Assembly (NCBI GenBank): GCA_013821605.1
Contig: JACDGP010000029.1
Span: 1,352 to 50,388, forward strand
Reading direction: 5' to 3'
DNA: 49,037 bases
DNA from: Herpetosiphonaceae bacterium
Lineage (GTDB): Bacteria > Chloroflexota > Chloroflexia > Chloroflexales > Kallotenuaceae
Shown: positions 17,828 through 33,042 of the stretch, in pieces
Layout of the letters: each line of letters starts with the position of its first letter
Position numbering within the stretch: the first letter of the stretch is position 1
Position numbers and translations under genes: made by a program
Notes under the pieces: model-generated
What the model saw: only the letters and a program-made list of their open reading frames with translations
Database searches by the model: none
Told to the model about the DNA's origin: nothing

Positions 17828-18034
17828 GGATAGATGTCGTAGGCAGCTATGCTGGTTCTGCCAGAGTTAGTCCAGGCACTGTCAGGTCGTGGACGTATCC
17901 CTAAAACAATGGTCAAAGAATGCCATAATTGGGGCTTGGTGGGGAGTAGGGAGTGAGAAAAATATCGTCTAGGGTCTCGTGAGCTGAGTTCTGACAGAAC
18001 TGCTATGCCAGCACGCCGTAAGCCGCCCGTCAGC

Positions 18035-18062
18035 TTGGGCTTGTTCCGCTGCCTGGTATAAT
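18035..18062 (+). promoter_or_regulatory. promoter predicting a leaderless transcript
   Basis: TTGGGC (18035-18040), 16-nt spacer, TATAAT (18057-18062). The next coding sequence begins with GTG at 18071, 8 nt after the -10, so transcription would start at or within two bases of the start codon. No ribosome-binding site is present. The preceding 17828-18034 stretch shows no gene. Confidence 0.6.
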
Positions 18063-18070
18063 CGCAGCCT

Positions 18071-20875
18071 GTGATAGTGCTCCTGCTACGTGGCTGTGTT
18101 GCGGCATTGCTGTTGGGTTTTGTACCGGGCTGGATGCTGGAGCGTGCCTGGTTCGGCGCAACTGCGCCATTGGCCGGCCTGGAACGGCTTGTCCTGCGGG
18201 TCGTCACCAGCATGCTGCTGGTAGGCTGGATCGCTTTTGTGCTCGCCGAATGTGGGATCTTCAGCTTGTGGATGCTGGGCGGGAGCGTGCTGCTCCTTTG
18301 TGCTGGTTGCGCTCTGGCAGCCCGTCGTCATGGTTGGGTGCTTGCCTCCGCCAAGCGGTGGTCACGCTCGGACTGGCTACTGCTCCTGATCGGACTCGGC
18401 TTCGCATTACTAGTGGCGCGGCCCTTCGAGGTCATTCGGGGGGGGCTGGATGCGGGCGTGTACGTCCTGACCGGCTTCGCCATTGCGCACACGGGCGGCA
18501 TCGTGCAATATGATCCGCTGGTCGCGGATATTGGGCGGCGGGCCGATCAAGGCGATCTTGATGCCCGGCGTGTCCGCAATCAACTCTTCATCGGCGGCAA
18601 TTCAAGCCGTTTCATCGCGACCAAGCAACGCGTGCAGGGCTTTCAAATTATTACGGATGATGTGGCGCGGGGCCGGATCGTACCCCAATTTTTCCATTTG
18701 TGGCCAACCTGGATTGCGATCTTTACCGTCGCAGGCACGCCGTATACCGGTTTGTTGGCGACGGGTGTGCTGGCGACGCTTGGCGTCTTGTTGCTGGGCT
18801 TGCTAGGGCGCCGGCTGGTGGGGCCAACGGTGGGCGTCGTGGCAGCCGCCTTCCTGGCACTTTCGACGCCCCAGGTGTGGTTCGGTCGCATGCCGACCTC
18901 TGAGGCGTTGGCGCAGGCATTGACGTTGGCGGGGCTATGGTCATTTACCTGCTTCGCCGCTGAGCCACGAGGTAGGCATGGTAGGTGGTGGGGCTGGTTC
19001 ACCGGCGTGGCGCTCGGTGAACTGGCGCTGACCCGTATCGATCCATTCTTTGTGATCGGGCCGGTCATACTGCTGCTGCTGTACATCGCCTTTACACGTC
19101 GCTGGACCACGGGCTATACGGCCCTAGCCGCGACCCTTGGGGTGTTGCTGCTGCATACCGTGCTGCACACACTGGTGATTGCACGCGCTTATTTCTTCGA
19201 TACGGCCTTCGCGCGGCTCCAGGATTATGCTCTGACGGCCTACGCCAGTCTCCCGTTCCTCACCAAAGAGATCGTACAGGAGTATTACGACCGTAAAGGT
19301 AGCCGGCTCGGTCATCCACTGCGCCTTGCCGAGGAGATCGCGGTGCTACTTGGGGCAATACTCCTGGCTGCGGCACTACGGCGACGACCAGCGTTGTTAG
19401 GGCGGGTCGAAGCGTGGGTGCAACACTGGCAACGACCGCTACTGGCAGCGTGGGTGGTGGGGCTGGGGCTGATGGCGGCTTACGCTTATTTGGTGCGACC
19501 GCATATCCTCACGACCGCGCTGCTCCGTGCACCCTTCACGACGGAAAATTGGTTGCGGCTCCAAGGCTATACGGGGGCGCCCATCGCCGTGCCACCGGGG
19601 TATGCAACGTCGTCGGTAGTGGGTCTGGCGCAGGCGAATCTGGTCCGAATCGGCTGGTATCTGTCGCCCTTGGGAATGGTGCTGGCCGTCTGGGGGGCAG
19701 TGCGCTGGTGGTGGCGCGGCCTTGATCGCTGTTCGTGGCTGTTGCTCGTGACGGCGGCGCTGTATACGATTTTTTTCGTTCGGTTAAGCTATGGCACCTC
19801 CGAACAAACCTATATTTATATTCTGCGCCGCGATGTGCCGGTTGTGTTTCCGGGCTTCATGCTGGCAATCGCATACGGACTGTTTGGTAGCGGGTGGCGC
19901 CCGGTCGTGTGGCGGCGGATGCGACCGGTGGCGGTTGGCCTTGCGCTGCTGCTGCTCATCTTTTTTGCCTGGACCGGACGTAGCGTATATGCGCATACCG
20001 AATATGCCGGTTCGTTTCCTCAATTCGCGGCACTGGCCGAGCACTTGCGACCGCAGGATGTGCTGCTGGTGCGGGTGGCGCATGAAGATCGTGATCTGTC
20101 TGATATTCCGGCGGCGCCGCTGACTTATTTGTACGACCGCAATGCCTTGACTTGGAAGGGGACCAATGCGGGCAGCTATGGGCCGGCGATGGCGGGGCAG
20201 GTCACACGCTGGCAAGCCGAGGGACGTGCCGTGTATCTTCTGCTGGGTGCGAACAGCGGCGAATTGAATCTGCCCGGTTGGGGGGTGCAACCGGTCACGG
20301 ATTGGAGTTGGCGCTTTGCGGAGTACGAACAGCCGCGTGATCATAAGCCCTCAGCAGCGGCAGCACCCCAAACGCTGACGATGCGGCTCTATCGGATTGT
20401 GCCACAGGCCCAGGCCGAGCTGCCCACACACATCACACCGCTCGACACGGCTTGGCAGCGCAATGGCATGTATCGGGCAGAACTAGGTGAGGGTGAGCCG
20501 GTGGCCTGGACGGGTGGCAGCGCCGAAGTAGAGTTACCACATGCGGTGGACGATGGGCAACTTGTGCTTGATTTGGCAAGTGGGCCGCGTCCGGTTGCGC
20601 TCGGATCCGCACGCGTGTGTACATTTGTTGCGCCCGACCGTTCCAGTGCGACCGATCCTGCTTGGCAGGCGCTTGGCTGCCAGCAGGTTGGCCATGAACG
20701 TCAAAGCCTCCACTGGCAGGTGCCCCCAACGCTCGCTAATCAAGGATGGCTAATCCGCATTGACACCACCCCACCGTGGGTGCCCAAAGATACCCAGCCA
20801 GACCCCGGCACACCCCGCTCTATCGATCAGCGCTCACTCGGGGTGCGCTTCTACGCAGCGGCGCGCTTGCCCTAA
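18071..20875 (+). CDS. large polytopic membrane protein, GT-C glycosyltransferase-like
   Basis: Protein of 934 residues with about a dozen or more hydrophobic helices over residues 1-660 and a soluble beta-rich C-terminal part. The layout and an acidic residue in the first extracytoplasmic loop (RGGLDAGVYV, around residue 124) resemble GT-C polyprenyl-phosphate-dependent glycosyltransferases of the GT39/83/PMT group. A later loop has GRMPTSEALAQ, also typical of that group. It may add sugars to envelope proteins or polysaccharide; the adjacent pilus genes make pilus glycosylation possible but unproven. The GTG start directly follows a TATAAT box (leaderless). The call is at fold level only. 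Confidence 0.7.
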   Translation: MIVLLLRGCVAALLLGFVPGWMLERAWFGATAPLAGLERLVLRVVTSMLLVGWIAFVLAECGIFSLWMLGGSVLLLCAGCALAARRHGWVLASAKRWSRSDWLLLLIGLGFALLVARPFEVIRGGLDAGVYVLTGFAIAHTGGIVQYDPLVADIGRRADQGDLDARRVRNQLFIGGNSSRFIATKQRVQGFQIITDDVARGRIVPQFFHLWPTWIAIFTVAGTPYTGLLATGVLATLGVLLLGLLGRRLVGPTVGVVAAAFLALSTPQVWFGRMPTSEALAQALTLAGLWSFTCFAAEPRGRHGRWWGWFTGVALGELALTRIDPFFVIGPVILLLLYIAFTRRWTTGYTALAATLGVLLLHTVLHTLVIARAYFFDTAFARLQDYALTAYASLPFLTKEIVQEYYDRKGSRLGHPLRLAEEIAVLLGAILLAAALRRRPALLGRVEAWVQHWQRPLLAAWVVGLGLMAAYAYLVRPHILTTALLRAPFTTENWLRLQGYTGAPIAVPPGYATSSVVGLAQANLVRIGWYLSPLGMVLAVWGAVRWWWRGLDRCSWLLLVTAALYTIFFVRLSYGTSEQTYIYILRRDVPVVFPGFMLAIAYGLFGSGWRPVVWRRMRPVAVGLALLLLIFFAWTGRSVYAHTEYAGSFPQFAALAEHLRPQDVLLVRVAHEDRDLSDIPAAPLTYLYDRNALTWKGTNAGSYGPAMAGQVTRWQAEGRAVYLLLGANSGELNLPGWGVQPVTDWSWRFAEYEQPRDHKPSAAAAPQTLTMRLYRIVPQAQAELPTHITPLDTAWQRNGMYRAELGEGEPVAWTGGSAEVELPHAVDDGQLVLDLASGPRPVALGSARVCTFVAPDRSSATDPAWQALGCQQVGHERQSLHWQVPPTLANQGWLIRIDTTPPWVPKDTQPDPGTPRSIDQRSLGVRFYAAARLP

Positions 20876-20943
20876 CCGCGCCCTCAACTCATCAGAACCT
20901 GCTGTGTGGTTACTCCAAGCATACCTGAGCTAGGGAAGCTATG

Positions 20944-22008
20944 TTACTTACCGGACGTGGCTGTTATGGTCGGGGCATAGATCCCGTTTGGCTCCTGGGG
21001 CAGCACGGGCACATTCGGCACTTGGACAGGACCCGGATGCTGGGACGGGGGCAGGCTGCTCGGCACCGGCATATTGTAATTATCGATCAGAATCCGGATC
21101 GTTGAACCGACCGTGTGCTCCGTCGTGTGGTCACCGGCACGGCGCAGCAGGGTCGAGATGCCGATGCCACGATCTAGAGCGAAGCGCAACACCTCGGCTT
21201 CCTGATCGGTCACACCAATAATCAGCACCCAATTGCCGTCCCGCAGCATCGAGGCCGCCGTGTTGTGCACGATCTGCTGCGATGGTGGTACCGCTTGTAC
21301 CTGCGGTGGTGGCGATGGCGCCGGAGTGGGAGGTGCTGGCGCAGGTTCGGGCGTCGCCTGGGGCGGCATCGGCTTAACAATATCGAACACCTGGGCATCC
21401 TGCAGTAGCACCTTGACGCTGCCCTCATTGCTGGCTTGTTCGACCACAGCCGGTTGTGACCCGCCGCCCTGACCACTCTGCGGAACACCCGCGCGGAACG
21501 TAGTAACGTCGAGATTGAAGGAGGCCATAATATCGACGTAGTCGCCTGGCTGGATCATATCGGCGACGCCGGTCAGATTGCTCACTTGGACCGGAAATGC
21601 TTTTAGCGACGGCTGTCCCGGTGGCGTGATAGGCATCTTGAGCGACAGACCGGCCGGGCCGAGCGCGTCCCGATGGACGGGAGCCTTGCCCGGGATTTTC
21701 ACCAGCGCCTTCATGTTTCGGACATCTGCTAGTTGAGTGAAATAGGACTGAGGATTGGCAGCATACTCATCACCCGAAATATTCTTAATTTCAAGCAACG
21801 ATGTCGTGTCGCTGATCAACGTGCCAGCCTCGATATCGATGGTCGCACCGACGACAGCCACATTGGGTCGCTGCGTCGGCGGAAACTGCTGGCTGGCGGA
21901 TACCTGGAGCAGCTTCGGCGACGCAAGATACATATAAAGACCCACGCCTGCCAACAGAATAATGAACATTCCAAGAATAATGAGGAAGCGGCTACCACCA
22001 CCACGCAT
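20944..22008 (-). CDS. cpaB: Flp pilus assembly protein CpaB (RcpC), copy 1
   Basis: Inner-membrane-anchored periplasmic protein of the Tad system, 354 residues: N-terminal membrane helix (about 8-28), SAF domain beginning near VVGATIDIEAGTLI, then the RcpC/CpaB region (FPVQVSNLTGVADMIQPGDYVDIMASF) and a proline-rich linker (APAPPTPAPSPPP). The C-terminal core (TDQEAEVLRFALDRG) is shared with the paralog at 26368. ATG 22008 is chosen; GTG at 22014 is nearer to AAAGG and equally possible. It lies 260 bp downstream of the tadG-like gene on the same strand; that gap holds no gene I can support, in particular no Flp pilin. Confidence 0.9.
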   Translation of the reverse strand: MRGGGSRFLIILGMFIILLAGVGLYMYLASPKLLQVSASQQFPPTQRPNVAVVGATIDIEAGTLISDTTSLLEIKNISGDEYAANPQSYFTQLADVRNMKALVKIPGKAPVHRDALGPAGLSLKMPITPPGQPSLKAFPVQVSNLTGVADMIQPGDYVDIMASFNLDVTTFRAGVPQSGQGGGSQPAVVEQASNEGSVKVLLQDAQVFDIVKPMPPQATPEPAPAPPTPAPSPPPQVQAVPPSQQIVHNTAASMLRDGNWVLIIGVTDQEAEVLRFALDRGIGISTLLRRAGDHTTEHTVGSTIRILIDNYNMPVPSSLPPSQHPGPVQVPNVPVLPQEPNGIYAPTITATSGK

Positions 22009-22268
22009 GATCACGATACCTTTCGCAACATTCGCTATGCCCTTCAGTCGGGCCGGTAAACAATGACCGGGACAGCGAGCTTGCGCTCGACTGCCCCAGC
22101 AGTATAGGCGGATGCCTGCAACTCCGAACAACGCATCAGCGCCACCGGCGCTTGGTACTTTCGACAAGTGCTGTGAGGGACTGTCGCGTTGCTAACCGTG
22201 GGGCAGGCACCTATCGGCTTCGCACAATCAGCAGACATATATGCCTCAAGCTCTTCGCTGTCTCGACC

Positions 22269-24791
22269 CTAGGGTGCGGGCATCGTACAGCCATTATTCG
22301 GCGTACCATCATTAGCTAGTGGTAAAGACAGGATAACTTCCGAATACTCCCTGGCGCCATTCGGATACTGCGGATCAAGGTAGACCGATGCCTGGCCTTC
22401 CTCGCTCAAGCTACGGCTATTCCTTAAGCGTGAGTAGGTGCGTGTGTAGCCGTCTTCCGGGCTCAGTAGGCTGAGCGATGGGTTTACTTTAACCAGGTAT
22501 TGACCGCCCGGCAGGTTATTGAATGAATACGCGCCGCTACCATTCGCGGTAGTCTGCATGCTAAAGGTTGGGTTGTTGGGCTGAGTCAGCGTAATATTGG
22601 CATTCGCTGCCAGCTGGGTTGTTTCGTGCGGCTGGCAGATGTCGTTACTGATCCGGTCGCGGATTGTGGCATAGATGTTGGCCATCGCATTCGAATCCTG
22701 GGCCGTATAGTAGTAGCCGGAGCCACTACTCATATTCATGAGGCCATTCGGAGGGAAACACGTCGTAGAGCCCTGCAAGCATGTTGGCGTTTCGGCCACG
22801 ACGAAGATCCGCGCGCCGCTATTCCTAATACGAGCGGCGACCTGCTCCGCTTGCCAGATGGGGCGACCGGAAACCGCGTTATAGCCTGCATTATTGAGGT
22901 AAAACAACGGGTCGCTGCTGCTGCCGTCGAACGGAACCATTTGGCCATAGGGGCAGCTATTATCACCATGGTCCGTGCCACACACGTTGAAGACGCCATC
23001 CGTTGCGAAGATCACGATTTGACCATATTTCTTGCCGTTGGGAGGCGTACGCTTGTTTTGCAATAAAGTCGCGACTGTTTCAAAGCCAATCGGGCCAGGA
23101 GTGATGCCGGCGGGTGTCATGCTGTTGGCTTTGGATTGAATCGTGGGCCACTTATTAGCCACGCCGTTACAGTTGTTGGCAAGGTTCGCGGCTGAGCATG
23201 CAGTCGTCCAGTTCGCCTGGATCACGGACGGGGAGAAACCCTGGGGTGTGTAGCAACCTGAGGTGTAACATGTAGCTGGGTCGTAACTGCCAGCAGTCGT
23301 GCCGCCGAAGGTGACGAACGAAATGCGGGCGTCGGGATCGCCAGTCGCTGTAGAAACATCATAGCTTTGGACGAAGCTTGCGACGGCCTGTTTGGCATCG
23401 ATGATACGCGCGTTCGCGGCGGAGTAGCCTGACTGACCCGGCTGGCGGTCGAACCAATCCCATTGCATCGACAACGAGGTGTCCATCACGATCACGATAT
23501 CGTAGCTCGTGGACTGGCTGGAAGTCCAGGTGCGCCACGCCCGCGTGACGTTGGCGAGGCCATCGATGCCAAATTGTTTGCTGGCAGCCGGGATGATCGG
23601 CGTGCCATTGGGTGTCTTCCAATCCGGCTTCGCCTCACTGCCACAAGATTGCGGGGCGGTGACCGCGTCGCCCACGTATTTGAGATCGATATATTTGGAG
23701 CCACTTGTCAGCGAGAAGTTACGAATAATGAAGTGGCCGACGTTAACTGTATGGTAGGCGGCATTCGACCCATTCGAGCCATTATTAACATCATAGAACG
23801 GCAACATCACATCTGTCTGGTTGGTCCTGAGCGTATCGAGCTGAGCTTGCAACGCCGCTTTGACTCCTGGGTCACCGCTGATCCAATCTCCGCGCTGAAG
23901 CCTGCCTATTGGCTGGATGTTTGGCTTAGACGCATCCTGGGACGCGGCTTCCAAAAAGCCCTGCTGAATCGTGCCGGGATAGGTCCAGGCTGCGGCGAGG
24001 CTGCTGTCGCCGTTTTTGCCTGGTAGTTGGGTGTAAGTAACACCATTCACTGTCTGAGTCTGGCCGCCCCAGTTGAGCCAGGACACATGCACGCCGGAGA
24101 TGAAATCGCTGCCATTGGCGACAGGGAAGCGAACCGTCATGCCCTGCATGGCTGAACCCCACTTGCCATAGCGCGCGTCGGAGGGGGAGAGTTGGGTGGT
24201 GCCATCCGACAGGAACACGGTATCGCCTGGAGTCGTCACGTTGCCGTGCGAGTCGGTCACAGGCGGGCGTATCGTAATCGGGATGGCCATGGGATAGACC
24301 CCATAGCTATAATCGCCCAGACACGAGACACCATTAGCACTGACAGTTAGCGACCGAGTGCCGACGACGCCCGCAAAGTAGGTTGCGACACGCTCCGCAA
24401 CCGTCACTTGCAGGCGCACCACATTCGTGGGGGGAGCACTGGCGCCATTCGGCACATAGGAAGTTGAGCCGTTCCATTCGCCGAGTGTTTGGAGAGTATC
24501 GTCACTTTTGACGTAATGCACCGTATAGGTATACGATGGGTTCGGGCTGATCCTATTACCCTGCAGCGCGCGCTGGGCATCGGTCCAGACACCGTTGTTC
24601 GTACTGTTGGTCAGCAGCGAGGCTTGAGCCGCCAGCGCGCCGGCATTCGCGACACTTTGCAGACGACGCTGCTGCGCGAACGCATTGCCAACATCGACCG
24701 ATAGCCCAATCATTGCGATGAGCACCAGAACCATGAAGGCAAGCAACACAATGCTTTGACCTGGCTGAGCACGATGGAATCTATTGCGCAT
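22269..24791 (-). CDS. TadG-like VWA pilus protein with C-terminal beta domain
   Basis: Protein of 840 residues. The N-terminus has the TadE/TadG signature: basic residues, GQSIVLLAFM helix (about 11-33), then the A-rich QRRLQSVANAGALAAQ helix. A central region without recognised domain is followed by a VWA domain (about 430-690) with MIDAS D437-x-S439-x-S441, and a CarboxypepD/Cna-B-like fold (about 720-800: GSGAYSFNNLPGGQYLVKV). It is probably exported by the pilus machinery as a minor tip adhesin; several Cys pairs fit an extracellular protein. Longer upstream frame rejected because AAGGGATAAAAG precedes ATG 24791. The upstream tadE gene ends 5 bp away. Confidence 0.88.
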   Translation of the reverse strand: MRNRFHRAQPGQSIVLLAFMVLVLIAMIGLSVDVGNAFAQQRRLQSVANAGALAAQASLLTNSTNNGVWTDAQRALQGNRISPNPSYTYTVHYVKSDDTLQTLGEWNGSTSYVPNGASAPPTNVVRLQVTVAERVATYFAGVVGTRSLTVSANGVSCLGDYSYGVYPMAIPITIRPPVTDSHGNVTTPGDTVFLSDGTTQLSPSDARYGKWGSAMQGMTVRFPVANGSDFISGVHVSWLNWGGQTQTVNGVTYTQLPGKNGDSSLAAAWTYPGTIQQGFLEAASQDASKPNIQPIGRLQRGDWISGDPGVKAALQAQLDTLRTNQTDVMLPFYDVNNGSNGSNAAYHTVNVGHFIIRNFSLTSGSKYIDLKYVGDAVTAPQSCGSEAKPDWKTPNGTPIIPAASKQFGIDGLANVTRAWRTWTSSQSTSYDIVIVMDTSLSMQWDWFDRQPGQSGYSAANARIIDAKQAVASFVQSYDVSTATGDPDARISFVTFGGTTAGSYDPATCYTSGCYTPQGFSPSVIQANWTTACSAANLANNCNGVANKWPTIQSKANSMTPAGITPGPIGFETVATLLQNKRTPPNGKKYGQIVIFATDGVFNVCGTDHGDNSCPYGQMVPFDGSSSDPLFYLNNAGYNAVSGRPIWQAEQVAARIRNSGARIFVVAETPTCLQGSTTCFPPNGLMNMSSGSGYYYTAQDSNAMANIYATIRDRISNDICQPHETTQLAANANITLTQPNNPTFSMQTTANGSGAYSFNNLPGGQYLVKVNPSLSLLSPEDGYTRTYSRLRNSRSLSEEGQASVYLDPQYPNGAREYSEVILSLPLANDGTPNNGCTMPAP

Positions 24792-24796
24792 TACTT

Positions 24797-25453
24797 TTAT
24801 CCCTTCACTATTCGTCGAACTGAGATGGCGTGGATGGTCAGCGTGTTGCCCAACAACCGTTGCAAAATGAATGGTTTGTAGAGCATGGCAGCGCGAATAA
24901 CGATGTAGCACGATGTGATATTTGGATTGGTCAGACTATGGGGCACCGAAACGCGCTGCTGGCACGCGCTATCAGTTGCGCTTGGATTATAGTTGCCGAG
25001 GAGCGCGAAATTGCCATTGCTGGCACTATCGATCTGGGTATTATCGGCTTCATCAATCTGGATCATCGACGTAACATATGCAGCCCCACCGGCCTCGCTG
25101 AGGTCGTCGATATGATTGGCATTGAGGTCTGACGGATTGCCAACGCCGTGAATGATAGAGCCTTGCTCGCTACGAAACCGCGTGCGCGCGATGTCATCCG
25201 CAGCGCCGAATGGATCGCATGGACTGGTACAGCTTAGCGCCGGATTCAGATCAAGATAGCTACTCGCCTCGGCAATTGCATTGACGAGTGACTGGTAGGA
25301 CATAAAGGTCAGGCCTAAATCTACTGCGGCGGAGAATAGTATCATGATGAACGTGATCGCGAGGGCCAGCTCCACAATGGCCTGTCCGGGCCGCGAATAG
25401 CGCGACGCGCGGCGGCGACACTCAGCTTGGGTTGGTAAGCGCGATCTCATCAT
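24797..25453 (-). CDS. tadE: TadE-like pseudopilin, second of two
   Basis: Minor pseudopilin of 218 residues. Basic N-terminus, then the prepilin-like PGQAIVELALAITFIMILFSAAVDLG segment at about 22-47 with Glu27 as the conserved glutamate, followed by a soluble domain with Cys residues (SCTSPCDPFG). ATG 25453 overlaps the upstream tadE stop as ATGATGA, so the two are coupled. It is an unusually long member (TadE is often 130-200 residues). Confidence 0.85.
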   Translation of the reverse strand: MMRSRLPTQAECRRRASRYSRPGQAIVELALAITFIMILFSAAVDLGLTFMSYQSLVNAIAEASSYLDLNPALSCTSPCDPFGAADDIARTRFRSEQGSIIHGVGNPSDLNANHIDDLSEAGGAAYVTSMIQIDEADNTQIDSASNGNFALLGNYNPSATDSACQQRVSVPHSLTNPNITSCYIVIRAAMLYKPFILQRLLGNTLTIHAISVRRIVKG

Positions 25454-25929
25454 GTTGAGCAGTCCGGCTTGAAGCCGCGTGGTGGGTCTGTATCCGTGAT
25501 CGTTCGTCGCGAAGTGAACCGAAAGTTTAGTGCATTCCCAAAGAAGCGACGGCCGATCGGAGTCAGGAATTGTCCGGTATAGGTCAACGTTGCTTCGATT
25601 TGATCGCCAATGTTACGGCCGCCACCGTTTGGAAAGGCGAACGTTATATGGGATGCGATGTTCGTCCTGTTCAAGCTGCTCAAGAAGATATCGTCCACCG
25701 CCTCCATTTCGGCGAGTTGTGCACACTTATCGTTAGGATCGTTCGGATTACTGACGCTCAATGGCGGTGTTTTGGACGCGCGCTCGGCCGCGTGTCTGGT
25801 CGCGTTTTCTAGCTCGGAGTAGATGTAAACATAGTAAGAACTGTCGATGATACCCATAGTAATGAGTACTAGGAACGGCAGCACAAGCGCCATTTCCACC
25901 ATCGATTGGCCAACTTTCCGGCGTCGCAT
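25450..25929 (-). CDS. tadE: TadE-like pseudopilin, first of two
   Basis: Short pseudopilin of 159 residues with the canonical start: MRRRKVGQSMVEMALVLPF, Glu12 being the conserved residue five positions after the cleavage-site Gly. The open frame continues 267 bases upstream, but that part has no pilin features; GGAGG lies 8 bp before ATG 25929. First gene of the minus-strand half tadE-tadE-tadG-cpaB. Confidence 0.87.
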   Translation of the reverse strand: MRRRKVGQSMVEMALVLPFLVLITMGIIDSSYYVYIYSELENATRHAAERASKTPPLSVSNPNDPNDKCAQLAEMEAVDDIFLSSLNRTNIASHITFAFPNGGGRNIGDQIEATLTYTGQFLTPIGRRFFGNALNFRFTSRRTITDTDPPRGFKPDCST

Positions 25930-26367
25930 AGATTGAACCTCCGCCACGCGTGTTGGAGCGCTAGGAGAAAGGATAGTAGACTGGCCGGTGCAATAACATA
26001 GTCCGGAAGTCCCCTCTCGACACTGACGAAATCGATCGCGCGAGGGGGTCCGATGGCGTGCTAACAACACGGCCCTTTCCGGCGGGCTGCAGTACACAGC
26101 AGATCGGACGCAAAGACATGCCACTACACTACAAGGAAGGCAGAGTGGGCTTTCTGTCGTCAAACATCTACGTTTCCTTGAACCTGCGCTAACCATGCGC
26201 CTAGCGCCTCACTTCCGAAAGTACCACGATGGGCGGGAACTAAGGGCGCTACTCCTTTCGAGGCATTGCACTATACTTCGGAGCAGGGCCAACTATGCCC
26301 TGCTCTTGTGATTAACTAGGGTTTATCCAGCAATTATTCCATTCTCCAAATGTGAAAGGCATGATCG
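25930..26367. promoter_or_regulatory. divergent regulatory region between Tad halves, with hairpin
   Basis: 438 bp without a supportable gene separating tadE (minus) and cpaB copy 2 (plus). On the plus strand a TATACT box (26272-26277) is followed at once by GAGCAGGGC-CAACTAT-GCCCTGCTC (26281-26305), a perfect 9-bp hairpin that would form the 5' end of the cpaB transcript. Either a stability hairpin or an early terminator. The minus-strand promoter could not be assigned. Confidence 0.45.
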
Positions 26368-27447
26368 ATGCGACGTGGGAGTAATACTTTACTTATCATC
26401 CTGGCCATTTTCCTCCTGCTCGGGGCGGGCGCAGTAGCATACTTCATGTTCCTGGGTAGCACGGCCAATGCTTCACCGTTTAGCACGGCGAAAGCTCCGC
26501 CAACCGTGTCCCCCCCACAGCAAATCGTTGAAGCGGTCGTGGATATCAAGACCGGCACGGTGATCAGTACCACCAACGATCTGATAAAAATGACCGAGAT
26601 TTCCGGCGAGGAGTATGCCAAGAGTCCGAAGACGTATTTCACAACCCTGGAAGCAGTCAAAGGACAGAAGGCGCTGCAAGATCTAGTGGGTGGTAAGCCG
26701 GTTCTGCAATCGGAAGTTGGCCTTGCCGGCCTTGCCGATCGTATTCCGCCACCATTGCCCGGCCGAGAAGCACTACATGCCTTTCCGGTGCAGCTCAATA
26801 CATTAAGTGGCGTCGCTGACCTGATTCAGCCGGGCGACTATGTTGATATCATGGCGTCCTTCAACCAGAACGTGATGACGCTACGGCCTGGACTACCGTT
26901 CACAATGACCAAAGAGCTCGGCAACGCCGGTGCCAGCGGTAGTGGCGCGCAGTATACCGGCGAAAGCACAGTTGAGGGCAGCACCAAAGTGCTGGTGCAG
27001 GATGTCCAGGTTTTGGATGTCCTGCATCCTGCACCGCCGCCCGCAGCCGGCACACCGACGGCAGCCCCGGCCGCGCCAGCAACTCCACCGCTGCAAGCGC
27101 CTCAGGCCGGTCAAAAACCGGACAATGGTGCAGGTACGGATCTCGTGAACGGCAACTGGGTCGTGGTGGTAGCGGTCACTAACCAGGAAGCCGAAGTGCT
27201 ACGTTTCACACTCGATCGCGACATCGGGATTTCGATGTTGCTGCGTCGCAGTGGTGACCATGCCACACAACATACGGTGGGTGCCACCTTGCGTATTTTG
27301 ATCGACAATTTCGGTATGCCGATCGGCTCAACCTTACCCTCTTCGCAACATCCGGGGCTCAATGTGCCGGAAGTACCGGTTCTGCCGAAAGAAGGCACGG
27401 AAAAGTTTGCACCGATCGTTGCGGCGACCCAGCAAGCAGCTAAATAA
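26368..27447 (+). CDS. cpaB: Flp pilus assembly protein CpaB (RcpC), copy 2
   Basis: Paralog of the minus-strand CpaB, 359 residues: membrane helix (about 8-28), SAF-type domain (VEAVVDIKTGTVIS), RcpC core (FPVQLNTLSGVADLIQPGDYVDIMASF), a Pro/Ala linker (near 225-255) and C-terminal VTNQEAEVLRFTLDRDIG. The pair aligns along almost the whole length, with the linker as the most divergent part. It begins the plus-strand half cpaB-cpaE-cpaF-tadB-tadC. The ribosome-binding site GAAAGG precedes ATG, as in copy 1. Confidence 0.9.
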   Translation: MRRGSNTLLIILAIFLLLGAGAVAYFMFLGSTANASPFSTAKAPPTVSPPQQIVEAVVDIKTGTVISTTNDLIKMTEISGEEYAKSPKTYFTTLEAVKGQKALQDLVGGKPVLQSEVGLAGLADRIPPPLPGREALHAFPVQLNTLSGVADLIQPGDYVDIMASFNQNVMTLRPGLPFTMTKELGNAGASGSGAQYTGESTVEGSTKVLVQDVQVLDVLHPAPPPAAGTPTAAPAAPATPPLQAPQAGQKPDNGAGTDLVNGNWVVVVAVTNQEAEVLRFTLDRDIGISMLLRRSGDHATQHTVGATLRILIDNFGMPIGSTLPSSQHPGLNVPEVPVLPKEGTEKFAPIVAATQQAAK

Positions 27448-27469
27448 CCGGTCAGCAATTCAGTGTAGG

Positions 27470-27500
27470 ATGGGGACGGGATAGGCTTGCCTGTCCCCAT
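27470..27500 (+). promoter_or_regulatory. intercistronic hairpin before cpaE
   Basis: ATGGGGACGGG pairs with CCTGTCCCCAT around a 9-nt loop (11 bp, one G-U). It ends 2 nt before the GAGAGGAG ribosome-binding site of cpaE and no T-run follows. Plausible as a processing, stability or attenuation element separating cpaB from cpaE expression. Confidence 0.5.
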
Positions 27501-27514
27501 GAGAGGAGCAGGTG

Positions 27515-28777
27515 ATGAGCGAAAGCGATGGCAAAATCCATGTGCTGATTGCAGACGATATCGCGGAAACCCGTGACATCCTGGAAAAGGCACTGTATTT
27601 CGAAAAAGATATCGTGGTGGTTGCGAAAGCCGCCAATGGACGCGAAGCGGTACAACTTGCCCGCCAGCACCGGCCTGAGGTGGTGTTGATGGACATCAAC
27701 ATGCCCGAGATGGATGGCATCGCGGCGACCGAAGCGATCATGGTGCAGGTACCGGGCACGCAAGTGATCATTATGAGCGTGCAGAACGAGCAAGAGTATT
27801 TGCGCCGGGCCATGCTGGCCGGGGCCCGCGAATACTTGATCAAACCACCGGATACCGACGAGCTGGTACGTAGTATCCGACATGTTGCTAAGCTCAGCGC
27901 ACCCCGAGCGACAATACCAGTCGCCGGCGGGAGCGAGAGCAAGCACGCTGAAATCGGCAAGCTCATTGCGGTATTTAGCCCGAAAGGCGGCGTCGGTTGT
28001 ACCGCGATCAGCGTTAATTTGGCGGTCGCACTCCGCCAGCTTACGAGCAAAAAAGTGGCGATCGTGGATGGCAACATGGTGTTTGGAGATGTTGATGTTG
28101 CAATGGATACCCGCGCCAATAAAAATATTCTCGACCTCACAAACCGCGCCAACGACATCGACGAACAGCTGATCGGCGATGTGATGGTCCCGCATGCCTC
28201 ACAGGTGCGGGTCTTATTGGGACCGCCGGACGGCCAAAGCGGCGAAGCGATTACCCCAGAGCAGCTACGGATTGTGCTCGAAGCATTGCGCAAGCAGTTT
28301 GATTATGTGGTGATTGATACGGCCACTGCCTATGATGACCGGACGTTGAGCATCTTGGATCTGGCGGATCGGATCCTTGTGCTGATGACGCTGGAATTGA
28401 CTACGATCAAAAATGTACGACAGTTCTTGGAGTTGGCGGTCCCACTGGGCTACGGCGACGAAAAGCTGATGCTGGTGCTTAATAAGGCCGATTCGCGGCT
28501 AGGCATCAAGGCCGAAAGTGTGGAAAGCCAGATGCGCCGGCGCTTTGCGGCTCAAATCGGCAATGCAGCGCATGATATGACGCTCGCTTTGAACCAGGGT
28601 GTACCGCTGGTCATGGATCGGCGCAATCATCAGGTGGCCAAGGATATCTTGAACCTCGCTGCTGTGATGGTCAACTCGCTCACTCCAGTAGTAAAGAGTG
28701 CGCATGCGAAGCCTGCGGTAGCGGCACAGCCAGCGGCAAGTCGTGGCTTGTTCGGCCGCTTGACGGCCAAGCACTAA
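27515..28777 (+). CDS. cpaE: CpaE/TadZ: receiver domain plus atypical MinD-like ATPase
   Basis: Polar-localisation ATPase of the Tad machine, 420 residues. The receiver-like domain (about 5-125) keeps Asp14-Asp15, phospho-site Asp60 (VLMDINMPEMDG) and Lys110. The ParA/MinD domain starts near 150 with P-loop KGGVGCT (157-163): the signature Lys157 is kept but the P-loop Lys before Thr is Cys162. A switch-II-like VIDTATAYDD follows. Unlike many TadZ proteins with degenerate receivers, the aspartate here is intact. ATG 27515 is preferred over GTG 27512. The C-terminal tail is Ala-rich. Confidence 0.92.
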   Translation: MSESDGKIHVLIADDIAETRDILEKALYFEKDIVVVAKAANGREAVQLARQHRPEVVLMDINMPEMDGIAATEAIMVQVPGTQVIIMSVQNEQEYLRRAMLAGAREYLIKPPDTDELVRSIRHVAKLSAPRATIPVAGGSESKHAEIGKLIAVFSPKGGVGCTAISVNLAVALRQLTSKKVAIVDGNMVFGDVDVAMDTRANKNILDLTNRANDIDEQLIGDVMVPHASQVRVLLGPPDGQSGEAITPEQLRIVLEALRKQFDYVVIDTATAYDDRTLSILDLADRILVLMTLELTTIKNVRQFLELAVPLGYGDEKLMLVLNKADSRLGIKAESVESQMRRRFAAQIGNAAHDMTLALNQGVPLVMDRRNHQVAKDILNLAAVMVNSLTPVVKSAHAKPAVAAQPAASRGLFGRLTAKH

Positions 28778-28789
28778 GGAGCGTACGCG

Positions 28790-30199
28790 ATGTCTTTACT
28801 TAAACGCATCGGTGAGCCGGGAGCTCCTGCGGGGGCGACGAACGGTGGAACGGGGATGCTGCGGAACGCTGTGGGGCAACCGGTAGCAGCGCGCACTCCG
28901 GGAAGTCTCGGCGGGGGCCGCGATATGAACCCTGAACGGGCTGCTGAGATCCGGCGCAAGATTCAGGAACGGCTGGTCGATCAAATCGACCCGCGCAAAG
29001 AACATAATAAAAACCAGATTTTGCGTCAGGTTGAAGAGATCCTGACGGCGCTGATCGATGGCGAAGGGTTGATTATTAGTCGTCCCGAACGCTTACGCTT
29101 GCTCGAACTGATTATGTTCGATATCACGGGGCTGGGACCACTCGAAGATTTATTGGCCGACGAGACGATCAGCGAAATTATGGTCAACGGGGCCAAGCAA
29201 ATTTATGTGGAGCGCAAAGGGCAGCTCGAAAAGGTGACGACGACCTTTATGGATGATCAGCATGTGCTGCGGATCATTGATCGCATCATCGCCCCGCTCG
29301 GTCGCCGGTGCGACGAGCAGTCACCGATGGTTGATGCACGGTTGCCCGATGGCTCGCGTGTCAACGTCGTGATCCGACCACTGGCGCTCAAAGGTCCCAC
29401 CATCACCATTCGTAAATTTGCCAAGAAAAAGCTCGAAGTCAGCGATATGATTCGTTATGGCACGCTGACCCAGGATATGGCCGAGTTTCTCGAAGCCTGT
29501 ATTAAGTGCCGACTCAATATCGTCGTCGCGGGCGGTACCGGCTCCGGCAAAACGACGACCTTAAATGTGCTATCAGGCTTTATTCCCGAAGACGAACGGA
29601 TCATTACCGTAGAGAACGCGGCTGAACTCCAACTACGCCAGGATCACGTGGTCACGCTCGAATCGCGACCGCCAAGTCTGGAGGGTACTGGCGAGATCAC
29701 GATGATGGATCTGATCGTTAACTGCTTGCGCATGCGTCCCGAACGGATCATCGTCGGCGAGTGTCGTGGTGGCGAGGCGCTGGCGATGCTCCAGGCCATG
29801 AATACGGGCCATGACGGTTCGCTCACGACGGCACATGCCAACACCCCTAAGGATACGCTCTCGCGGTTAGAAACGATGTGTTTGATGGCCGGCATGGATC
29901 TACCGATGCGCGCCATTCGTGAGCAAATCGCTTCGGCAGTACAGTTGATCGTGCAGCAGTCACGCCTCAAGGATGGTTCACGCCGGATTATTAATATTAC
30001 CGAAGTCGCCGGCATGGAAGGCGATCAGGTTCAACTTGCCGATATTTTTGTTTTTGAACAAACTGGGGTTGACGAGCAAGGCAAGATCGTCGGTCGTCTC
30101 CGCCCCACCGGTGTACGCCCACGTTTCGCCGAGCAATTCGACCTGATGGGTGTGTATCTGCCTCCCGGCATCTTTGGAACCAACGACCGGTATATGTAG
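28790..30199 (+). CDS. cpaF: CpaF/TadA secretion ATPase
   Basis: Hexameric cytoplasmic motor that powers Tad pilus assembly, 469 residues. N-terminal domain includes IMFDITGLGPLEDLLAD and a strand ISEIMVNG; the core has Walker A GGTGSGKT (248-255), Asp box (VENAAEL, 274-280), Walker B with Glu324 (RIIVGECRGGEA) and His box (GHDGSLTTAHAN, 340-351). Twelve bp after cpaE, preceded by AAGGAG. Complete by length and motifs. Confidence 0.97.
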   Translation: MSLLKRIGEPGAPAGATNGGTGMLRNAVGQPVAARTPGSLGGGRDMNPERAAEIRRKIQERLVDQIDPRKEHNKNQILRQVEEILTALIDGEGLIISRPERLRLLELIMFDITGLGPLEDLLADETISEIMVNGAKQIYVERKGQLEKVTTTFMDDQHVLRIIDRIIAPLGRRCDEQSPMVDARLPDGSRVNVVIRPLALKGPTITIRKFAKKKLEVSDMIRYGTLTQDMAEFLEACIKCRLNIVVAGGTGSGKTTTLNVLSGFIPEDERIITVENAAELQLRQDHVVTLESRPPSLEGTGEITMMDLIVNCLRMRPERIIVGECRGGEALAMLQAMNTGHDGSLTTAHANTPKDTLSRLETMCLMAGMDLPMRAIREQIASAVQLIVQQSRLKDGSRRIINITEVAGMEGDQVQLADIFVFEQTGVDEQGKIVGRLRPTGVRPRFAEQFDLMGVYLPPGIFGTNDRYM

Positions 30200-30211
30200 A
30201 ACGAGAATGTC

Positions 30212-31183
30212 ATGGGCGCTTTCTTTCTTATCTTGATCGTTTTTATGGTGGTGATGCTGGGCGGCGTAGTGCTGCTGATCCAGCGCGGGCGGCGCAGCAC
30301 GGTCGACGAGCGGCTGGCGAACTTCTCAGGCGCGGTAGCCCAGGCAGATGGGCCGGACCTGGGGACGCGCGTTGATGAAGCTGTGATGAAAACCAAGCGA
30401 GGGGCTGGCATTGCACGCGAGCTCGCGAAGGCGGATATTAAGCTCACCGCTGGCGAGTTCTATTCAGCAAAGGTGGCTGCGGCTGCGGTGGGTGCCGCAT
30501 TTGGCGGCTGGTTCGCCACACATTTGAGCGGAGTGCACGGCCCTTTAATGCTGCTGGGTGGTGCGTTGCTGCTGGGCATCGCCGCCTCGTTTATCCCTAA
30601 TATTTACGTGGGCGTCAAGGCCAAGCGCCGCGTCAAGTCCTTCAACAACCAACTTGCCGATACGACAGCGATGCTGGGGGCGGCGATTCGCTCAGGGTCT
30701 TCGTTCCTGCAATCGATGGATCTGATCTCGCGCGAGGCCAATGCTCCGGTTGCCTCCGAGTTTAAGCGGGTCGTACAGGAGGTCGGCTTGGGGCTGACGA
30801 CCGAAGCGGCGTTGGCGAATCTGTACCGGCGCGTGCCGAGCGATGACCTGGATTTAATGATCACGGCGATCAACATCCAGCATGAAGTCGGCGGCAACCT
30901 GGCACAGATCCTGGAAAGTATTAGCTTCACGATCCGCGAGCGGGTGCGCATCAAAGGCGAAATTCAAACATTGACGGCACAGGGCCGGATCTCGGGATAT
31001 GTAATTACCGGGTTACCGGTCGGTCTGGCAATCATGTTGACCTTAATTAATCCTGATTACATGCATCCAATCTTTACCTGGGGCTTACCCCCACAAGCTT
31101 GGTGCTGTTTACCAGTGACTTCGGGAGCCATGATCATTGGCGGCTATTTCACGATCATGAAGATCGTTAATATTGAAATCTAA
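30212..31183 (+). CDS. tadB: TadB, type II secretion F-domain membrane protein
   Basis: Inner-membrane platform protein of 323 residues. Hydrophobic helix at 3-25, another near 88-125, and the T2SSF domain (about 155-285) with the pattern LADTTAMLGAAIRSGSSFLQ then GGNLAQILESISFTIRER, then two C-terminal helices. Starts 12 bp after cpaF with only a weak AACGAGA ribosome-binding site. Partner of TadC in forming the platform engaged by CpaF. Confidence 0.92.
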   Translation: MGAFFLILIVFMVVMLGGVVLLIQRGRRSTVDERLANFSGAVAQADGPDLGTRVDEAVMKTKRGAGIARELAKADIKLTAGEFYSAKVAAAAVGAAFGGWFATHLSGVHGPLMLLGGALLLGIAASFIPNIYVGVKAKRRVKSFNNQLADTTAMLGAAIRSGSSFLQSMDLISREANAPVASEFKRVVQEVGLGLTTEAALANLYRRVPSDDLDLMITAINIQHEVGGNLAQILESISFTIRERVRIKGEIQTLTAQGRISGYVITGLPVGLAIMLTLINPDYMHPIFTWGLPPQAWCCLPVTSGAMIIGGYFTIMKIVNIEI

Positions 31184-31195
31184 AGGAGGTCAACG

Positions 31196-32104
31196 ATGGC
31201 ACTGCTGTTAGTTGGCATATTGGCCGTTGGCGGACTGGGTATACTCGTTCTAGCGCTCCTCAAGGGACGGTCGAGCGTCATAGATGACCGGCTGGCGAGC
31301 TTGGGCGATTCCGGGGCATCACTCGAAGATCTTGAACTGCAGCTGCCATTTCGCGAACGTGTACTCGAGCCGGTCATTAAGTCGCTGTTGAGTCTCGCCG
31401 GCAAAGTTTCCCCTACCAAAAATGCGACGAAGCTCAAGCATAGTCTGGAGATGGCCGGTAATCCAAACGGGCTGACACCTAGCATGTTCATGGGCGTACG
31501 GCTGGTACTGGCCATCGTATTGACGCTCGGCTTTTTCTTGCTGATGAAGGTAGCCGGCACGACAGGCATCACGCTGGTTATGTATACCACGATTGGTGGG
31601 GCAATTGGTTATGTTATGCCGGGCATTTGGCTCGGCCAAAAGATCAAAAAACGCAAACACAATATTCTGCGCTCATTGCCCGATGCGCTTGATCTGCTTA
31701 CCATCAGCGTCGAAGCCGGTCTAGGTTTTGATCTCGCACTCACACGTGTGGCCGGCAAGTGGGATAACGAGTTGAGCAAAGAGTTCAATCGCATGATCTC
31801 GGATACGCGTCTGGGTGTTCCCCGCCGCGATGCTATGCGTGCCATGGCCGACCGCTGCTCAGTCGAGCCACTGAGCTCGTTTGTAGCGGCTATCCTGCAA
31901 GCGGAGCAATTGGGCGCGAGCTTCGGCAAAATCTTGAAGGTGCAATCAGAGCAGATGCGCGTCAAGCGCAGGCAACGCGCCGAGGAGTTGGCACACCAGG
32001 CTCCGATTAAGATGCTGTTTCCGATGGCCTTTTTGATCTTCCCTTCGATCATGGTGATTATTCTGGGACCGGCGATGCCACGCTTGTTCGGCGGGGCATT
32101 GTAA
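31196..32104 (+). CDS. tadC: TadC, type II secretion F-domain membrane protein
   Basis: Second platform protein, 302 residues, related to TadB. N-terminal helix (2-24), two central helices (about 95-155), T2SSF domain (about 160-285) with LPDALDLLTISVEAGLGFDL and QAEQLGASFGKIL, and a last helix (LIFPSIMVIILGPAM). AAAGGAGG right before ATG is the strongest ribosome-binding site of the operon. Last gene of the unit; the next gene converges with only 14 bp between them. Confidence 0.92.
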   Translation: MALLLVGILAVGGLGILVLALLKGRSSVIDDRLASLGDSGASLEDLELQLPFRERVLEPVIKSLLSLAGKVSPTKNATKLKHSLEMAGNPNGLTPSMFMGVRLVLAIVLTLGFFLLMKVAGTTGITLVMYTTIGGAIGYVMPGIWLGQKIKKRKHNILRSLPDALDLLTISVEAGLGFDLALTRVAGKWDNELSKEFNRMISDTRLGVPRRDAMRAMADRCSVEPLSSFVAAILQAEQLGASFGKILKVQSEQMRVKRRQRAEELAHQAPIKMLFPMAFLIFPSIMVIILGPAMPRLFGGAL

Positions 32105-32118
32105 CAACAGGGTCGGGG

Positions 32119-33042
32119 TTATACACGCGGCGGCAGGAATTCCTTGGGCAGTTTGCAGACCATGGTGTAAGCCGGATCGTAGATATTGCCGACATCGTAC
32201 TCAACGCACATGCCGAGCAACATGCCTGCCTCGCGTGCCGATAGGCCATAGGCGGTCTGAAGCCAGCGCAACATCTCGGTTGTGGCATGCTGCACGGCTT
32301 GATCGAGCGGCCGGGCATTACCGACGGTGAAGATGTGCGTATCATTCTCGCCGCGCGGCCAGCGGTTGCCCTCGCCCTTAAGTAACTCTATGGTAAATTG
32401 CACCTCGAATGAGATCTCAATGCCGGTCTTGGTAATCTCGCCGTCGCCCTGGCGCGCGTGACCATCGCCTAAGAAGAAGAGGGCACCGGGTACAAAGACC
32501 GGAAAGTAGACGGTGACGCCGCTGACAAAGCCGCGGTAGTCCATGTTGCCGCCGAAGGGACCGGAGGTCATGGTGGAGATGGCCTGGCCACCGGCCGGCG
32601 CGACGCCGAAGCAGCCCAACATCGGAGCGAGCGGAAGCCGAAAATTGCCTAACCGCTCCTCCGGACTGACCAGTGATGCCGTTTGGGTCGCTAGATCAAC
32701 GTTCCACACGACGTCTTGGTTGTTCGCATCCCATGCTAGCTCCGGCACATACTCTGGCTCAACCACGTTGGGCGAAAGCATCACGCCCGCTTCGCCAAGC
32801 GGCCGGTTGGGAGTCAGCCGGTCAAGATGCACGACCAAGATATCCCCTGGCTCCGCGCCTTCGATAAAAAATGGCCCGGTCTGCGGGTTCGGACCGTAGG
32901 TCACTTTTACATGCTGGGCATCCTGACCCATGGCGTCAATGGTTGTGGTGATGACCGTATCGCTGGGTGCAATCCGTAACACCGGCTCGTGTGTGCCGAG
33001 GGTGTTGTAATAATGAGTCGGTGTGAAGTGATGGGTAGTCAT
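32119..33042 (-). CDS. formamidase/acetamidase-family amidohydrolase
   Basis: FmdA/AmdA family, 307 residues, usual length about 300-400. The family releases ammonia from short-chain amides. Visible motifs: EGAEPGDILVVHL, PLAPMLGCFGVAP, FGGNMD and FFLGDGHARQGDGEI (metal/active-site region). GAGGAG lies 9 bp before ATG 33042. No amide transporter or urea-cycle genes are adjacent, so the physiological substrate is open. Monocistronic; 80 bp separate it from the ABC genes upstream on the same strand. Confidence 0.9.
   Translation of the reverse strand: MTTHHFTPTHYYNTLGTHEPVLRIAPSDTVITTTIDAMGQDAQHVKVTYGPNPQTGPFFIEGAEPGDILVVHLDRLTPNRPLGEAGVMLSPNVVEPEYVPELAWDANNQDVVWNVDLATQTASLVSPEERLGNFRLPLAPMLGCFGVAPAGGQAISTMTSGPFGGNMDYRGFVSGVTVYFPVFVPGALFFLGDGHARQGDGEITKTGIEISFEVQFTIELLKGEGNRWPRGENDTHIFTVGNARPLDQAVQHATTEMLRWLQTAYGLSAREAGMLLGMCVEYDVGNIYDPAYTMVCKLPKEFLPPRV

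Follow-up and report, generated by a model that had tools for sequence, protein, structure and literature searches.

The stretch of DNA analysed here (the window) is 49,037 bp long and comes from a contig of 50,388 bp; because its far end is also the end of the contig, just 1,351 bp of the contig lie outside it. The source genome (G000) is a draft of 5.88 Mb in 259 contigs, its contamination being estimated at 2.49, and its nearest named relatives are Chloroflexota or unclassified bacterial MAGs. Profile searches gave a family match to each of nine Tad genes, which are listed here together with the neighbouring PMT-like gene and the region between the two halves of the locus.

18071..20875, plus strand: PMT-like membrane protein, 934 aa (PMT_2, E 1.1e-4, 22.8 bits, under the cut-off of 26.1)
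20944..22008, minus strand: cpaB1 (RcpC/CpaB), 354 aa (RcpC, 31.5 bits; start probably at 22008, in an ORF open from 22167)
22269..24791, minus strand: tadG, minor-pilin-like, 840 aa (Tad, 36.3 bits; likely start 24791)
24797..25453, minus strand: tadE2, minor pilin with a GQAIVE site, 218 aa (TadE, 28 bits)
25450..25929, minus strand: tadE1, minor pilin with a GQSMVE site, 159 aa (TadE, 47.8 bits; likely start 25929)
25930..26367, no strand: intergenic region of 438 bp between the divergent starts (from the sequence)
26368..27447, plus strand: cpaB2, 359 aa (RcpC, 33.6 bits; SAF, 17 bits, under the cut-off)
27512..28777, plus strand: cpaE/tadZ (receiver domain, Response_reg, and AAA_31)
28790..30199, plus strand: cpaF/tadA, assembly ATPase (T2SSE, 216 bits)
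30212..31183, plus strand: tadB, platform protein (T2SSF, 71.4 bits)
31196..32104, plus strand: tadC, platform protein (T2SSF, 65.8 bits), adjoining tadB

The family matches and coordinates confirm the layout that an earlier note had read from the letters, with tadE1-tadE2-tadG-cpaB1 on the minus strand and cpaB2-cpaE-cpaF-tadB-tadC on the plus strand; the shared region of 438 bp claimed there is also correct, lying between the tadE1 start codon at 25929 and the cpaB2 start at 26368. The components by which a Tad system is recognised are present in the window, namely a CpaF/TadA-type ATPase, TadB together with TadC, TadZ/CpaE, and TadE/TadG minor pilins. Rfam and tRNA scans of the window gave no match. 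Within the 438 bp no sigma-70-like site was listed, and the scan as a whole was no better than that of shuffled sequences. The same region contains a perfect 9-bp inverted repeat (26281-26289 and 26297-26305) with a 7-base loop; positions 26196-26368, folded as DNA, gave a z of -2.1, and three of 200 shuffles folded equally well.

Tad minor pilins have been described as forming tips with a large TadG-like subunit (PMC12075869), and for Caulobacter CpaL the prediction is a minor pilin with a VWA domain, placed at the tip (PMC12607857). TadE1, TadE2 and TadG of the window all have prepilin-type N-termini, with E at +5 in both TadEs and absent from TadG. TadG has a VWA region, with a DxSxS motif of the MIDAS type at D437, and a CarboxypepD_reg-like beta domain at the C-terminus; both matches (VWA_2, 20.5 bits; CarboxypepD_reg, 26.4 bits) are below the curated cut-offs. 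The DxSxS motif is found in 25 of the 26 TadG rows with E under 1e-50, that of the window included. The predicted model of TadG (pLDDT 41.8) was too poor for a fold search. Considering the prepilin-type N-termini together with the DxSxS motif, TadE1, TadE2 and TadG look like tip minor pilins, by analogy with CpaL and the Kil tips.

No pilin and no peptidase had been visible in the earlier note, which holds for the window and its contig but not for the genome, where both are encoded on other contigs. Searches of the whole genome with the Flp and A24 models gave no match on the contig of the window, so the 1,351 bp of it outside the window hold no sign of the flp/cpaA pair that would have counted against the earlier reading. 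Looking for flp elsewhere, as had been suggested, led to two proteins, both plainly Flp by their sequences: one on C38 (35.7 bits; GQGLVEYALILVLIAIV), located at the contig edge, and one on C110 (GQGLIEYGLILILIAIV), which scores 24.9 bits, under the cut-off, and has a clear GQGLIEY. The corresponding search for a peptidase gave an A24-type protein on C112 (49.3 bits), carrying D..RRIPN and GMGD, which we take to be A24 motifs, and a candidate on C31 with a GLGD motif and a score of 21.9 bits, under the cut-off. The absence of a secretin, also anticipated earlier, extends to the whole genome as far as the Pfam secretin model can tell: it matched none of 60 genomes including G000, and matched 6 of 14 control genomes. 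The monoderm Tad machines treated in one review lack a secretin, and the same source also lists RcpC among the missing parts (PMC6916266); in the order of G000, CpaB is common even though no secretin was found.

The distribution of Flp and of the long CpaB in the 60 genomes, G000 included, was tallied from matches at E 0.001, at which 39 of the 49 genomes with Flp are above the Flp cut-off. Both were present in 47 genomes and neither in 10, Flp alone in two (G027, G050) and CpaB alone in one (G048); all ten genomes that lack both belong to genus g5, so the pattern of absence is close to one event. Flp was never seen next to the long-CpaB locus in the 47 genomes that have both (G000 among them). 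The two share a contig in seven of these (G002, G010, G018, G021, G026, G029, G041), the nearest pair, measured by hand in G018, being ~330 kb apart; the remaining 40 genomes have them on separate contigs, which in a draft does not fully rule out closeness. An A24 match was obtained in 46 of the 48 CpaB-bearing genomes (none in G002 and G030). As far as can be seen, Flp and the peptidase are encoded apart from the locus as a rule in the order, and the absence of Flp from the locus of the window consequently means little. An flp gene apart from the locus is not the rule across the phylum, since a pilA/Flp gene within the CpaB-TadC cluster is described in Anaerolinales (PMC4877987). We infer that the Flps on C38 and C110 belong to the machine of the window; they may instead serve another machine, given that a second Tad-like cluster exists on C112 and that in G053 (L152) it is the second Tad system, the one with a short CpaB, that has two Flps beside it.

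The earlier note went further and suggested that the machine may export TadG and use a different pilin encoded elsewhere, with two CpaBs serving two assembly states. Read as a machine that exports TadG in place of building a classical Flp pilus, this is in keeping with a contig without flp and with two intact CpaBs. A pilin elsewhere was indeed found; however, the two Flps are canonical, the distance between Flp and the locus is the norm in the 47 genomes, and the prepilin-type N-terminus of TadG argues against its export in place of a normal pilus. Furthermore, the lateral thin pili observed by electron microscopy in another member of Chloroflexota, Litorilinea aerophila, are ascribed to its Tad genes (PMC13319060). 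Nothing tested supports the two assembly states, and we regard the reading as a whole as very improbable.

The origin of the divergent layout can be approached through the long-CpaB loci of 35 relatives. In 22 of them the tip genes and a kelch gene were found upstream of cpaB on the same strand, the full colinear order in relatives being tadE1-tadE2-tadG-kelch-cpaB-cpaE-cpaF-tadB-tadC. At eleven loci, of which seven belong to genus g10 and four to family f2, the 9 kb upstream (3 kb in G012) contain no tip gene; two further loci are cut by contig ends. Two of the eleven genomes have a separate full tip set with kelch, and no cpaB in the 20 kb covered there (L131, L132); a third has kelch and tadG at a contig end (L134). 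None of the 35 loci is divergent. The kelch-repeat protein of relatives has ~850 aa and an N-terminus that reads as secreted; an alignment-based search of 20 of the genomes found the gene in 19 and none in G000. Repeats within the tip set were seen in three relatives, where a second tadG lies upstream of it (L028 in G046, L033 in G032, L145 in G023), accompanied in L028 by a second kelch gene, also upstream.

In L023 (G004), L026 (G019) and L132 (G021), tadE1 is immediately preceded by a PMT-like gene on its own strand. This order is not seen in G001 or G002, which are of the same family; the PMT-like homologue in G004 matches that of the window with E 8e-238. In the window the PMT-like gene is followed by cpaB1-tadG-tadE2-tadE1, reversed, and then by cpaB2 onward, unreversed, which is the pattern expected from an inversion of the tip half in place, with the PMT-like gene presumed to mark the left edge of the inverted segment. 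We infer the inversion from this gene order, and we are fairly confident that the locus derived in this way from the colinear run of the relatives and that it encodes an ordinary Tad/Flp pilus whose Flp and A24 peptidase are encoded elsewhere. The loss of the kelch gene and the gain of a second cpaB are best read as having come along with the inversion. The colinear order is presumed to be ancestral to the separate-locus state of f2 and g10 as well.

Since the divergent arrangement is known from one draft assembly, and no genome of the same genus was among those searched, it could be a join error, in which assembly or binning fused two Tad loci that are related, or placed one piece in the wrong orientation, within one contig. 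The 259 contigs, the contamination estimate of 2.49 and the lack of an independent genome of the genus in the searches make such an artefact conceivable. On the other hand, positions 18001-33000 contain no N, GC and GC3 are similar on both sides of the locus, and CpaB1 and CpaB2 both belong, together with the same family, to a single starred clade. The TadE model matches only the two TadEs of the locus and one different small protein on C120, so there is no second tip set of the same type. It also counts against a join error that it would not make a second cpaB that is 49% identical to the first. An artefact is thus improbable in our view, and inversion in place remains the preferred reading.

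CpaB1 and CpaB2 are 49% identical over 337 columns (about 49-51%). RcpC is above the cut-off for both, and SAF was detected in CpaB2 alone, below the cut-off. The best PDB fold match of the CpaB2 model (pLDDT 67.7) is RcpC, 9GZR (E 1.5e-9; TM 0.27/0.45, which is low), and a PDB sequence search with CpaB gave no match. Each copy keeps 29 of the 32 positions that are conserved in at least 90% of the 35 relatives, so neither looks like a pseudogene, a possibility that we rejected. The differences at the three codon positions are 0.367/0.295/0.628. With the conserved positions kept and third codon positions most different, both proteins appear to be under selection at the protein level and look functional.

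Two full-length long CpaBs were found only in G000 among 82 genomes of the order (65 matched) and 158 of the class (78 matched; class-wide search at 1e-15), with G067, which has two partial rows on two contigs, left aside. The remaining genomes with two rows are explained by a short paralogue (G002, G003, G004), by pieces of one place (G030, G036, G068, G070) or by contig-end fragments (G071). It had been asked whether relatives share the duplication; those searched do not.

The duplication may be recent or old. CpaB1 and CpaB2 come out as a pair in the best trees (support 91/87 and 87/86, neither starred); the first included 18 relatives and the short CpaB of C112, the second 20 of the 35 relatives' CpaBs, and a further alignment (A3) covered 15 of the 80 loci and the two window copies. 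The AU test is compatible with an older split, as it rejects neither a tree in which the family groups with CpaB1 only (p 0.109) nor one in which it groups with CpaB2 only (p 0.106). If the duplication were older than the family and one copy had been lost in relatives, the two CpaBs would be old and maybe functionally distinct, and their identity of merely 49-51% would fit such an age. However, the best trees make them sisters, certain stretches are common to the two alone (for example ISG-EYA and LP-SQHPG), and two long copies occur in none of the five family genomes, so an old duplication would need losses. We consider it unlikely, yet the most serious of the alternatives discussed here.

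Rates were compared by hand as -ln identity, dividing the window-to-family by the family-to-family distance (means of four family genomes, three for TadE1, TadE2 and TadC). Each CpaB has a ratio of 2.2, CpaE one of 2.3 and CpaF one of 2.4; the values are lower in TadC (1.9), TadB (1.4), the TadEs (1.3) and TadG (1.0). The result for a special acceleration of CpaB is therefore mixed, the protein being no faster than CpaE and CpaF but faster than the remaining Tad proteins. Another candidate that was rejected is a segment that inverts at the present day: cpaB1 and cpaB2 form inverted repeats, but they are 71% alike over 173 bp with a longest exact run of at most 11 bp, which makes recombination between the copies unlikely today.

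The likely function of the locus is that of a Tad/Flp pilus with a VWA-bearing tip, each functional step being deduced from protein families. CpaF would power TadB/TadC, which would polymerise the Flp pilin encoded elsewhere, after the A24 peptidases, also encoded elsewhere, had matured Flp, TadE1, TadE2 and TadG. TadE1-TadE2-TadG would prime the fibre and remain at its tip, where the VWA domain of TadG could act as an adhesin or a force sensor. Caulobacter CpaB has been modelled as a cage aligning the pilus (PMC13170226), and CpaB of the window may similarly be an extracytoplasmic guide ring, here without a secretin; CpaE would place or regulate the machine. The minus half would in this way supply the tip, the plus half the machine and Flp the shaft. 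The inversion would have made the tip genes and the machine genes point in opposite directions, outward from the shared 438 bp, accompanied by the loss of kelch and leaving one CpaB on each side.

The solved RcpC is described as a periplasmic ring of twelve subunits, in which A and B conformers alternate around a pore whose size suits the pilus (PMC12307814). CpaB1 and CpaB2 might accordingly be combined in one mixed guide ring, either as paralogues occupying the A and B places or with the tip operon setting the make-up of the ring while tips are being produced; a linked idea is that recombination between the inverted cpaB copies formerly allowed the tip operon to flip, until their divergence froze it. 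Both ideas are speculative, and we give them little chance of being right. The likeness to RcpC of Pseudomonas aeruginosa (PDB 9GZR), which forms a ring for the pilus, lies in the fold match of the CpaB2 model; the difference is that RcpC works with the secretin RcpA, whereas here no secretin was found and there are two paralogues (PMC12307814).

The tip proteins can be compared with those of two other bacteria, one of them the diderm host Myxococcus xanthus. Its KilL/M/N proteins are likewise a minor-pilin trio with a large modular subunit; the Kil tips come in four separate cassettes in one genome, and differ in being tied to a T3SS-like complex and in their demonstrated part in predation (PMC12075869). 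CpaL/CpaJ/CpaK of Caulobacter crescentus similarly comprise two small minor pilins and a large VWA one with a MIDAS motif, but the beta-rich region of CpaL is inserted in the VWA domain, and the beta domain of TadG is C-terminal (PMC12607857).

The kind of system is already known, as Tad sets in Chloroflexales and pili in Litorilinea have been described. The Chloroflexales sets are given as rcpC-tadZABC, tadEEG and flp, which corresponds to the three groups seen here, a base half with RcpC/CpaB, a tip half of tadE-tadE-tadG, and flp; one rcpC is listed there, whereas the window has a second cpaB on the tip half and its halves are divergent (PMC7332563). The Tad set of Litorilinea aerophila includes one flp and is set apart by its description, in which two tadZ copies are reported and CpaB is not named (PMC13319060). 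In the open-licence literature no report was found of a divergent, CpaB-duplicated Tad locus, nor of a Tad pilus together with kelch in Chloroflexota. The unusual part is the arrangement, that is, the divergent halves and the second cpaB.

By itself the window is a modest curiosity. Together with the relatives it indicates that the Tad pilus of the order is modular, with cpaB-cpaE-cpaF-tadB-tadC as the machine cassette, tadE-tadE-tadG-kelch as the tip cassette, and a pilin and a peptidase located elsewhere. The tip cassette may be colinear with the machine cassette, occupy a locus of its own, have an additional tadG upstream (in one case an additional kelch too) or, as in the window, be inverted. 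CpaB is present in 48 of the 60 genomes and a secretin was found in none, which suggests that CpaB has a role of its own, and bacteria with CpaB but no secretin would make such a role testable.

Other Tad-like genes were observed in the same genome and in relatives. A lone CpaF-type ATPase in G000 (C145, L018:9777-11219) has no TadB/TadC match in the surrounding 20 kb. The second Tad-like cluster on C112 has an A24 peptidase and two VWA proteins besides its short CpaB; a 781-aa protein on that contig (L007:526-2871) carries two T2SSE ATPase domains in one chain and adjoins a single CpaF, giving three ATPase domains in a row. Two 73-aa proteins on two contigs (L007:12410-12631 and L121:11003-11224), one by the second Tad-like cluster and the other by a small TadE, have one difference in the 70 residues compared and are possibly a pilin of another type. 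In seven loci of relatives (L151-L157) there is a second Tad system, which combines a short CpaB with a VWA protein and has a TadE/TadG of its own, and a peptidase of the C31 type lies near this second system in G043 (L153) and G034 (L154).
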